The notes beneath the pieces were generated by a model. The model saw only the letters and a list, made by a program, of their open reading frames with translations. It did not search any database and was not told the origin of the DNA. Made by a program: the position numbers and the translations under genes. A DNA stretch of 33,538 bases from Balneolales bacterium (GTDB taxonomy: Bacteria; Bacteroidota; Rhodothermia; Balneolales; Natronogracilivirgulaceae). The stretch lies in NCBI GenBank assembly GCA_007135115.1, contig SLJN01000172.1, positions 1-33,538 of the forward strand. Reading direction: 5' to 3'. This document shows, piece by piece, positions 2,259 to 6,667 of the stretch (positions within the stretch are counted from its first letter, which is position 1; each line of letters opens with the position of its first letter).

Positions 2259-4616
2259 ATGAGTCGTTTTCTACAGTTTTTATCGGGCTATTTATCTCTG
2301 CTATTGATTGTCATGGCATGTGGTCCCACCGAAGAGGTAGCCGCTCCCGAGGAGAATGAAGAGGAACCCCGGGAATTTTCGATTACCGAAGAAGATTATG
2401 ACCGCGCTGCTTCACTGATGGGCTGGAATCTCTCTGATAAAGTCTTTCGCAATTCCATCAGTCCGAATTGGACCGATGATGACCAGTTTTGGTACCAGGT
2501 TTCTGACCGAGAAGGTGAGATTTACTATTGGGTCAATCCTCACGATCAAGTCAGGGAGCGGGCTTTTGACCATGAGCGTCTGGCCGAAGCGATCAAAGAA
2601 GCCACCGAACGCGAGTATGAGCCTTACGACTTACCTCTCGACAACCTTGAGATCGAAGACGACCGCAGCAGCTTAACTTTTACCGGCGATGATGTGATAT
2701 GGCAGTGTGATTTAGATACCTATGCCTGTGAAGAATACGGCGAGCCCAAACGCTCAGTTCCCCATTCTGTCGATTCTCCGGATGGGCGTTATTCCGCTTA
2801 CATTGATGACTGGAATCTGTGGGTCTACGATCACGAAGAAGAGGAAGATGTGCAGCTCACAACCGAGGGCGAGTATCGCCACGGTTTTGCAACCAACTCT
2901 CAGGGCTGGTTTCGTGCGGATTGGCCGATTTTATACTGGTCAGATGACGGCAGTCACATCTCAACTTTTCGACAGGATGAGCGCGATGTGCCCGAAATGC
3001 ACCTGCTGGAAATGGAAGAAGGTCGTCCGGTACTCGATTCCTGGCCGTATGCGCTACCCGGTGATGATGACGATGAAGTGCCCCGGCTCGAACGTGTCAT
3101 CATCGATGTCGAAGATCGCAGCAAAACCTGGCTCGATGTAGAACCTGACCATCAGCGCACCTCCAACTGCTGTGGGTTGCAGCGCGGTCGAGACTGGGCG
3201 GATAACGAATGGAATGAAGACGCCTCCCGACTCGCTTTTGTCTCCACCTCCCGCGATTATCAGACCGTGACCTTACGTATTGCCGATCCGGAAACCGGTG
3301 AGGTTACCGATATCTATGAAGAAACCGCGGAAACCTTTTTCGAATCTAATCTGACTTCCAGAGGTATTCCCAACTGGCGCGTATTGGAGCAGACCGACGA
3401 ATTCATCTGGTTTACCCGTAAAGATGAATACGGCCATCTCTACCTGCATGACCTGGAAACCGGTGACCAGAAAAACCGCATCACCGAAGGGGAGTGGAAT
3501 GTTGTGGATATCCTGAAAGTAGATGAGGATAACCGTGAGATCACCTTTACCGGAGCCGGCAAAAATCCGGATCACGACACCTACCACATTCACTTATATC
3601 GCGTTAGCATGGATGGCGGAGAAGTTGAGACATTGACCGAACAAGAGGGTAATCATAATATCTCCCTGTCACCCTCCGGAGATTACTTCGTCGATACCTG
3701 GTCGGATTTTACAACCCCCCAGACCATTGCACTGCGTGATGATACCGGAAATGAACTTTTAGAGCTGGAACAGGCGGATACAGAATTACTCGAAGAGGAA
3801 ACCATCTGGCATGCCCCTGAATCGTTTACCGTGAAAGACCGCAACGACGAATACGATCTGTACGGGTTGATGTTCAAGCCTTCCGATTTTGATGAAAATG
3901 AGTCTTACCCGATCATCAATCACATCTACCCGGGACCGCAGTCCGGAAGTATTGGTACACGATCGTTTACACCGTCGCGAGGGTTTGCGCAGGCGCTGGC
4001 TGAGCTGGGTTTCATTGTGGTTCAAATCGATGCTTTGGGAAGCAGTCCGCTCAGAACCAAGTCGTTCCACACCGCCTATCAGGGCAATATGGGCGATAAC
4101 GGACTGCCCGATCAAAAATATGCCATGGAGCAACTTGCCGATCGGTACGACTGGATTGATCTTGACCGCGTAGGCATTTATGGTCACTCGGGTGGGGGAT
4201 ATGCTACTGCCGCCGCACTGTTTCGTCATCCTGACTTCTTCCATGTGGGTGTATCCAGCGCCGGCAATCACGATAACACCGGTTACACCTACTACTGGGG
4301 CGAAAAATTCCAGGGCTTGCGGGAAGAAACCGAAGACGGTGATACCTACGACAATCAAGGCAACCCGGCAGTAGCCGAAAACCTGGAAGGCGATCTTCTG
4401 ATTTCCTATGGTACGATGGACAGCAACGTGCATCCGAATATGACCAAGCAGGTTATCAACGAGTTGATCGAACACAACAAAGATTTTGATCTCATTGTGA
4501 TGCCGAACCGCGGCCACGGATACTCCGGCGAGCCGTACCATATCCGGCGAACCTGGGATCACTTTGTGCGATATCTGCATGAGGTAGATCCTCCGGAAGA
4601 ATACGAGCTGCCGTGA
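2259..4616 (+). CDS. S9 family peptidase (DPP-IV/prolyl oligopeptidase-like), lipoprotein
   Basis: Lipobox-like VMACG after MSRFLQFLSGYLSLLLI. Beta-propeller-like N-terminus. GIYGHSGGGYATAAAL nucleophile elbow, GTMDSNVHP and NRGHGY catalytic regions. ATG at 2259 preferred over the ORF-track start at 2196. Confidence 0.9.
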   Translation: MSRFLQFLSGYLSLLLIVMACGPTEEVAAPEENEEEPREFSITEEDYDRAASLMGWNLSDKVFRNSISPNWTDDDQFWYQVSDREGEIYYWVNPHDQVRERAFDHERLAEAIKEATEREYEPYDLPLDNLEIEDDRSSLTFTGDDVIWQCDLDTYACEEYGEPKRSVPHSVDSPDGRYSAYIDDWNLWVYDHEEEEDVQLTTEGEYRHGFATNSQGWFRADWPILYWSDDGSHISTFRQDERDVPEMHLLEMEEGRPVLDSWPYALPGDDDDEVPRLERVIIDVEDRSKTWLDVEPDHQRTSNCCGLQRGRDWADNEWNEDASRLAFVSTSRDYQTVTLRIADPETGEVTDIYEETAETFFESNLTSRGIPNWRVLEQTDEFIWFTRKDEYGHLYLHDLETGDQKNRITEGEWNVVDILKVDEDNREITFTGAGKNPDHDTYHIHLYRVSMDGGEVETLTEQEGNHNISLSPSGDYFVDTWSDFTTPQTIALRDDTGNELLELEQADTELLEEETIWHAPESFTVKDRNDEYDLYGLMFKPSDFDENESYPIINHIYPGPQSGSIGTRSFTPSRGFAQALAELGFIVVQIDALGSSPLRTKSFHTAYQGNMGDNGLPDQKYAMEQLADRYDWIDLDRVGIYGHSGGGYATAAALFRHPDFFHVGVSSAGNHDNTGYTYYWGEKFQGLREETEDGDTYDNQGNPAVAENLEGDLLISYGTMDSNVHPNMTKQVINELIEHNKDFDLIVMPNRGHGYSGEPYHIRRTWDHFVRYLHEVDPPEEYELP

Positions 4617-5125
4617 TTGATACCGGGAGGCTGATCATACCGGTATTCGGATGTATCCTGTTATTGATGCTTTCTGCCGGCTGTGTCCGTACGCTCCATG
4701 TCCAGAATATGGATACTGACCGGCAGACCTACCGGAGTAGTCAGTTTTTCTTTTTTCCCAAACCCTATCGTATTTATCTGTCGGAAGATGAATACGTTCG
4801 CGGCTATGATGTGCAGGTAACAAGCGTTGTCACGATGTATCGTCCCTCACCGGGGGAAGACTTTAATGCCATCAGAAATACCAGAATTTACAGTATCACC
4901 CACACCAGCCGGGAAGCCGGATTGGTCATTGGACTGCTCGCCGGATTTGGCGGAAGTCTGCTGGTGAATAATCTTGTGGAATCCGAGCCATTCTACTCAA
5001 CCACTAATATAATGGAGCCCTCCCATTTCATCATTGGAGGTGTTGGTGCCGCCCTCGGTACCACTTACGGCTTTCCGAATGTAACAATGATGAATACCGA
5101 CACCGAACCGGAGCAGCAGGAGTGA
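4613..5125 (+). CDS. Hypothetical lipoprotein, start overlaps stop of the S9 peptidase
   Basis: GTG start at 4613 inside GTGA overlap. LMLSAGC lipobox. Confidence 0.7.
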   Translation: MIDTGRLIIPVFGCILLLMLSAGCVRTLHVQNMDTDRQTYRSSQFFFFPKPYRIYLSEDEYVRGYDVQVTSVVTMYRPSPGEDFNAIRNTRIYSITHTSREAGLVIGLLAGFGGSLLVNNLVESEPFYSTTNIMEPSHFIIGGVGAALGTTYGFPNVTMMNTDTEPEQQE

Positions 5126-5210
5126 TTTTATAATTCATAGGTGGTATTTAAGAAATTCGGTAGTGTTCGACAGATTTTATTCAAATCAAAAAAATCCAAA
5201 TACACCATTT

Positions 5211-5283
5211 GGCGGCTAAAGCCGCCGATGTGAGAGGGGGGAGAGCAACGACTCCGTCGGTTAAAACCGACGGAAATAGATGA
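5211..5283. repeat. REP-like repeat family A copy 2 (right half)
   Basis: ggcggctaaagccgcc followed by ccgtcggttaaaaccgacggaaat. Confidence 0.75.
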
Positions 5284-5335
5284 GAAGCAATGCTTAAGGG
5301 CTTTGGCACATGAAAAGAGGACATCCACCTAAAAA

Positions 5336-5559: not shown

Positions 5560-5680
5560 TATAGTAATAACAATCTATTTCCGTCGATTTTAATCGACGG
5601 TTAGACGGGGCAATCAATTAACTCAAAGGGGCTTTTAGCCCCGAGTGCCTGGCAGCTAAGCCGCCGATATGAGGGAGAGG
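5560..5680. repeat. REP-like repeat family A copy 3 (mainly left half)
   Basis: taacaatctatttccgtcgattttaatcgacggttag, aaaggggcttttagcccc, ctaagccgccgatatgaggg. Confidence 0.75.
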
Positions 5681-5712
5681 GGCTATATACACCAATTTTG
5701 ATCTAAACAGGT

Positions 5713-5817
5713 ATCAAACCCAAATCAAATACAGTACAAAGCCATATCAAAGACGTAAATATTCGAATTTGATACGAACTTGATACGAATTTGAGGTGTA
5801 TTTGAAACGTGTTTGAT
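5713..5817. repeat. 11-bp-phased, dyad-symmetric array of TTTGAT/ATCAAA half-sites
   Basis: ATCAAA at 5713, 5724, 5746 and TACAAA at 5735. TTTGAT 5768, CTTGAT 5779, TTTGAG 5790, TTTGAA 5801, TTTGAT 5812. All spacings are multiples of 11, with one dyad centre at about 5765. Confidence 0.75.
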
Positions 5818-6034
5818 AAAAGCGAGTTCCTCATGAATTATAAGGATCGTTCCTACCCCAATTATCCAGTAATATGCTTTCAACCCTGTTAAAAAATGGT
5901 CGACTTACCAAATCAACATCTTGCTAATTTTAAAGCATTTAAAGAGTTGTAAATTCGGTCATTCGAGGGAAATTACCATTGGTGTAAATGAGTTTCAGTA
6001 ACAGAACTCATAGAACATTCACAAAAAGGAATTA

Positions 6035-6667
6035 ATGATGCTGATTCGCAGTTCATTTAGCGTGTTAACCGCTGTGGTTTTTATCACTTTCGGTTTGTTA
6101 CTGAAAGGATGTGGTGGAGATCAACCGGATCAAACTTCACCGGAAGATATGGAAGAAATGCCTGAAGCCGGTGAGCAAGAAGCTCCGCAGCCTGGTGAAG
6201 AACCAGAGCAGGATCCGATGGGTGAAAGTGAAGATATCGGTGATATGGATTTAGTTGAAACCATGATTATTGAAAATCTAAGCGCCATGGTTTCGGCACT
6301 TGAGGGATCAGGTATGACCGAAGAGCTTCAGCAAGATGGTCCGTATACCGTTTTTGCCCCAAGTGATGAAGCATTTCAGCAGGCACCGGAAGAAGTTCAA
6401 CAGCTTTTGGTAAACCCTGATCCGGAAGCACTTGAAGACCTCATGGCTGGTCACGTTGTCGAAGGTGAATATACAACCGATGAACTTGCCGAGATGGGTG
6501 AAGTTGAAACCGTATCCGGTGATGTTCTAAGTATAGAAGGGGACGGAGATATGCTCGAAGTTGAAGGCGTAAACATTGCATTCAATGATATTGAAGCCGA
6601 AAATGGCGTAATACATACGCTCGAGACCGTCCTTACCGATCTTGGATACGCTTCATTAGAACAATAA
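6035..6667 (+). CDS. Fasciclin (FAS1) domain lipoprotein
   Basis: LLLKGCGG lipobox; DGPYTVFAPSDEAFQQAP; GVIHTLETVL. Confidence 0.9.
   Translation: MMLIRSSFSVLTAVVFITFGLLLKGCGGDQPDQTSPEDMEEMPEAGEQEAPQPGEEPEQDPMGESEDIGDMDLVETMIIENLSAMVSALEGSGMTEELQQDGPYTVFAPSDEAFQQAPEEVQQLLVNPDPEALEDLMAGHVVEGEYTTDELAEMGEVETVSGDVLSIEGDGDMLEVEGVNIAFNDIEAENGVIHTLETVLTDLGYASLEQ

Follow-up and report, generated by a model that had tools for sequence, protein, structure and literature searches.

Dispersed arrays of 11-bp repeats in a Balneolales genome and their association with DUF6266 genes: a putative self-dispersing unit

A mirrored array of 11-bp repeats lies upstream of a fasciclin gene in the 33,538-nt stretch of Balneolales DNA analysed here (assembly GCA_007135115.1, contig SLJN01000172.1; hereafter the window), and about 14 scattered copies of it (11 close ones and three of a related subfamily) are carried by the same genome. 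Arrays of the same period also stand just upstream of genes of the DUF6266 family (PF19781) in many other Bacteroidota, and array plus gene look like a unit of gene and binding array, so far undescribed, that can spread in a genome. The window array is probably, if only just, the 5' part of such a self-dispersing unit, dispersed without its gene, the array itself being a protein-binding platform. Among the papers searched, none described the array or the DUF6266-linked unit or mentioned DUF6266. Both the dispersed family and the link to DUF6266 were missed by the original prediction.

The array (5702-5822, plus strand) consists of ten 11-bp units, five on either side of a 6-bp centre, AAATAT (5757-5762, no strand assigned). 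In the left arm (5702-5756, minus strand), ATCAAA-type hexamers, each followed by 5 bp, begin at 5713, 5724, 5735 (TACAAA) and 5746, and a tenth, degenerate unit, TCTAAA, begins at 5702; the right arm (5763-5817, plus strand) comprises five units of 5 bp plus TTTGAN, with hexamers at 5768, 5779 (CTTGAT), 5790 (TTTGAG), 5801 (TTTGAA) and 5812 (TTTGAT). All ten half-sites share one 11-bp register, with a hexamer step of 22 bp across the centre, while a further TTTGAT at 5697 is off-register and lies outside the array. The nine half-sites, 11-bp spacing and 22-bp central jump of the original prediction were thus all found where it had placed them, whereas its mirror centre at about 5765 has to be moved to 5759.5, within AAATAT. 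The asymmetric core GACGT-AAATAT-TCGAA is common to most copies in this genome; C23 and C24 carry TTATAT as their centre.

A repeat-finding program reported arms at 5712-5757 and 5773-5818 with a complementarity of 72%, together with a family of 11-bp direct repeats. When the periodicity was checked against shuffled sequences, as had been proposed, self-identity over 107 bp at lag 11 was 0.60, a value that no shuffle out of 5000 attained at any of the lags between 5 and 20. The array is the top lag-11 stretch of the 33.5 kb, with no other place coming near, and its four-unit scores of 21-22 out of 24 compare with a maximum of 18 in 60 Markov-simulated windows. Its right neighbour is the gene for a fasciclin-domain lipoprotein (6035-6667, plus strand; PF02469, E=8e-30) and its left neighbour a gene of unknown function with no Pfam match (4613-5125, plus strand). 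A special tie to the fasciclin gene, the context given in the original prediction, is not supported, and regulation specific to this gene was rejected, because other copies adjoin unrelated genes, some of them lying between convergent genes; the gene is a neighbour. Two REP-like palindromic blocks to the left of the array (5210-5290 and 5580-5680; CCGTCGGTTAAAACCGACGG and CCGTCGATTTTAATCGACGG, each near GCCGCCGAT...GAGGG) look like a separate repeat family.

In the whole genome, a 3.78-Mb metagenome-assembled genome (MAG) that is 89% complete, a search for the 50-bp dyad with up to three mismatches returned 12 matches, against none for the reversed control. The original prediction had called for such a search and had made itself dependent on further arrays being found; the array recurs both in its own genome and elsewhere, and the prediction therefore survives. 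A sequence-only model built from ten copies in this genome gave strong matches at 11 copies and weaker matches on C280, C227 and C206, a subfamily of three that uses the related unit CTGGYGTTGAT; the window array, itself among the ten model-building copies, was matched at 5712-5826 with E=1.1e-25. Between copies, units resemble each other more when they occupy the same rung than when they do not, to a degree that 0 of 500 permutations matched in either arm. This likeness speaks for common descent rather than independent assembly, and therefore indicates that the copies in this genome descend from one another.

The likeness between copies ends at the array edges, after about 110 bp, where copies differ in unit number. 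Flanks are unrelated except for C24 (L046:1-440) and C23 (L052:5440-5860), which sit between unrelated genes and have a further 340 bp of non-coding sequence in common at 83% identity. A full-length mobile element around the array was considered and set aside, further shared sequence being confined to the 340 bp of this pair. The genes next to the arrays are unrelated (flagellin, PdxJ, HIUase, RND efflux, phosphodiesterase, aminotransferase and others), and no shared function was found among those flanking the copies in this genome. Divergent, tandem and convergent intergenic gaps are all occupied, in every orientation, and one array (C29) lies between convergent genes. Among the individual settings, C119 (L048:5580-5899) follows a tRNA gene at a distance of about 115 bp and precedes at least five clustered flagellin genes, and the second-subfamily array C227 (L261:1018-1590) precedes a 71-aa HTH_3 gene by about 260 bp.

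Beyond this genome, the distribution is sporadic. Among 245 genomes of the class, real copies were found only in the own genome and in one other of the same order (G022), and none in the species of the same genus; a 396-genome phylum sample gave only isolated single matches in addition, which are read as chance. When one genome per species was scanned, arrays of this geometry turned up in one Cloacimonadota MAG as well as in Saccharicrinis aurantiacus and other Bacteroidota. They share TTTGAT, its recurrence every 11 bp and a step of 22 bp across the centre, and the 5-bp spacers are genome-specific (ATACA in G246, GTGAG in Saccharicrinis, ACGTC in G248 and WCGWA in the own genome). Two Saccharicrinis arrays (L221 and L224) lie between convergent genes.

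Two further placements were examined. Three Saccharicrinis arrays (L218:483-677, L219:3708-3930 and L220:3620-3700) stand about 500 bp short of contig ends with a likeness to rRNA operon leaders, and two of the arrays have a Flavo-1 RNA (RF01705) about 100 bp away; an rrn-linked role was dismissed, this setting being seen in these Saccharicrinis duplicates only. The window array (5712-5826) and an array in G022 (C96, L059:5878-5927) are both solo arrays that precede an sbcD/sbcC-like operon by about 1 kb, the intervening genes being different in these two families of the order. Conserved placement near this operon was likewise rejected: the array is absent at the sbcD loci of 11 further relatives, and the shared position may therefore be due to chance.

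The connection with DUF6266 emerges at C280 in the own genome and at C65 in G022, where arrays stand directly upstream of DUF6266 genes. With loci picked by HMM alone and arrays sought in the 500 bp upstream, lag-11 arrays were present at 14 of 28 usable loci from array-bearing and related genomes, and at 7 of 22 in an independent sample of the phylum, in whose selection arrays played no part. The background rate is 2.1% (binomial p about 3e-7 for the independent set), none of the 50 loci (28 + 22) has an array downstream of the gene, and no lag from 7 to 16 other than 11 is enriched upstream. At the genome level, DUF6266 occurs in 7 of 8 array-bearing genomes versus 19 of 295 others (p about 1e-7), and in 21 of 297 phylum genomes. 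The independent sample has markedly dissimilar units, TAACTATATGC in G344 and TTGTATATCCA in G464 being examples; what goes with DUF6266 is therefore the period and the location of the repeats rather than TTTGAT. By eye, a YAA core, as in ATCAAA, is kept in many units; likeness between units shows no clear specific tracking of the N-terminal domain of DUF6266.

Array and gene also travel together. In G250, three paralogous DUF6266 loci share 90-95% identity over the whole span between the array's outer edge and the stop codon, while their flanks are unrelated, which shows that array plus gene disperses as a unit of about 1 kb. In G022, such a unit (C65, L293:79-2929), whose full-length DUF6266 protein has 203 aa, lies between cas3b and cas6b, all on one strand, and broken DUF6266 copies retain their arrays in the own genome (C280) and in G028. 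Scanning of 1.6 of the 2.66 Mb of the complete G464 chromosome uncovered just three lag-11 arrays; one precedes DUF6266 and another is related to it but has no gene, the two sharing 74% identity over 239 bp. No DUF6266 gene lies near the window copy, and it is classed as solo because related arrays adjoin DUF6266 genes at C280 and in G022. The only DUF6266 gene of this 89%-complete MAG is a truncated 82-aa copy next to an array of the other subfamily; the cognate of the TTTGAT subfamily may therefore be missing from the assembly, or another protein may take its place. Half of the DUF6266 genes have no clear array. The Cloacimonadota MAG has 12 arrays and no detectable DUF6266, and at the G246 arrays, for which none is detectable, another protein may bind.

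The arrangement suggests a model in which each 11-bp unit (N5-TTTGAT in the window) would seat one protein protomer on the same helical face, so that two head-to-tail rows of protomers would face each other about the 6-bp centre. Suitability of a helically phased dyad for cooperative protein binding, the core of the original prediction, is supported, the binding itself being predicted. The first candidate for the binder is DUF6266 itself, or else a protein working alongside it, which would occupy both the array upstream of the DUF6266 gene and the solo copies. Solo arrays may owe their movement or upkeep to complete units acting in trans, in the way that RAYT genes serve REPINs, and a putative mobilising enzyme would move the unit. 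Cooperatively bound arrays of repeats of about 11 bp upstream of a gene also characterise ParR/parC-type iteron centromeres. Those, however, form a single plasmid locus with an NTPase gene, whereas the present family consists of dispersed chromosomal copies.

The closest functional parallel may be a REPIN-RAYT or MITE population, in which dispersed copies, some of them gene-linked, would behave much as these arrays appear to do. REP/REPIN elements are likewise short, intergenic and palindromic, occur in many copies of which one or a few are flanked by a gene, and are genome-specific in sequence and sporadic in distribution; dispersed intergenic and gene-linked copies are both found in the array family. 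The family nevertheless falls outside REPIN-RAYT systems because its linked gene is DUF6266 only and not a Y1/HUH transposase. RAYT is an IS200-like TnpA_REP, and the present elements are built of direct 11-bp units about a dyad.

Among the alternatives, the one that fares best, although we regard it as unlikely, is that the arrays are operators of a genome-wide regulator or of a nucleoid or silencer protein that also controls DUF6266 genes, the dispersed copies being other regulatory sites with no mobility involved. Strict phasing, the position of many arrays upstream of genes (including all DUF6266-linked ones) and the YAA-type core conserved in many units are what such a regulator would lead one to expect. 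Against it, copies also lie between convergent genes (C29, and L221 and L224 in Saccharicrinis), their neighbours have no common function, the copies descend from one another within unrelated flanks, and array plus gene disperses as a unit.

It is still less probable that the arrays are purely a non-autonomous MITE of an unrelated transposon, with DUF6266 as a passenger or coincidental neighbour. The family is indeed non-coding, dispersed, of common descent and set in unrelated flanks, as a MITE would be, its arrays are sporadically distributed, and MITEs with internal minisatellites exist in Bacteroidota (BrickBuilt, PMC4596501); the independent DUF6266 sample, however, keeps its link to arrays despite entirely different unit sequences. 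Among described Bacteroidota elements with an internal minisatellite, the nearest is BrickBuilt of Porphyromonas gingivalis, which is intergenic and multi-copy and comprises a 23-nt unit repeated in one direction with a leader and a tail (PMC4596501). The window array does not share this make-up, and the family differs in its 11-bp phasing and dyad; no DUF6266 link is reported for BrickBuilt.

A long RNA or DNA hairpin (terminator, regulatory RNA or cruciform), also raised in the original prediction, is very improbable. The window copy folds better than shuffles (z=-3.3), as any dyad would, and the arms in Saccharicrinis and G246 are near-perfect palindromes. However, complementarity between left and right arms is no higher within a copy than between copies (17.64 vs 17.60 of 25), and paired cells in the alignment amount to 70.2% versus 69.9% when shuffled, with 191 of 500 shuffles as high. 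Extra pairing within copies is absent in the own genome, G246 and G249; the five Saccharicrinis copies, three of them duplicates, are alone in leaning towards it. The hairpin is unsupported because the arms pair with no compensatory changes or covariation between them. In addition, no Rfam match was found in the window region or in the searched DUF6266-linked loci, no terminator-like T run was found at the window array, and DUF6266-linked arrays, such as those of G344 and G464, are mainly unidirectional. It is the direct 11-bp units that are conserved and not the base pairs, as is expected for protein recognition.

A CarH/LitR-type light-regulated operator, in which a MerR photoreceptor dependent on B12 binds tandem 11-bp direct repeats head-to-tail along a single face of the DNA (PMC9304148), shares the period and can be set aside as extremely improbable, since its unit, nnnnTnnACAn every 11 bp (PMC9304148), differs from N5-TTTGAT, the arrays form a dyad of 8-10 units at sites not restricted to promoters, and a photoreceptor combining MerR and B12-binding domains was not found in the 89%-complete MAG, whose only MerR_1 match is a 106-aa protein and whose one non-MetH B12 protein has only B12-binding domains in Pfam. 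The latter (L033:1087-2118) has 343 aa, with PF02607 and PF02310 as the domains recognised, and is unlinked to the arrays.

Returning to the self-dispersing array-DUF6266 unit, a bolder version of this reading holds that DUF6266 is a sequence-specific DNA-binding protein forming a filament of one protomer per turn on its own 11-bp arrays, and that array and gene together define a novel type of self-dispersing bacterial unit, one that lacks a known recombinase, undergoes rapid diversification of its recognition sequence across Bacteroidota and fills the chromosome with gene-less arrays; we consider this unlikely. Pfam and remote-homology searches detected no recognised DNA-binding, recombinase or Y1/HUH transposase domain in DUF6266, and an HU-like relationship was rejected (hhalign probability 0.2%). 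No relatives were found in plasmid and phage collections or in two viral-contig scans, and a third such scan gave one weak match (63 residues, 30% identity). DUF6266 is a family of unknown function that occurs in about 7% of sampled Bacteroidota genomes, with as many as 19 copies in a single examined genome, and its link to the arrays provides it with a defined, testable candidate DNA partner. The arrays also add a dispersed-repeat family whose linked gene is no recognisable transposase.
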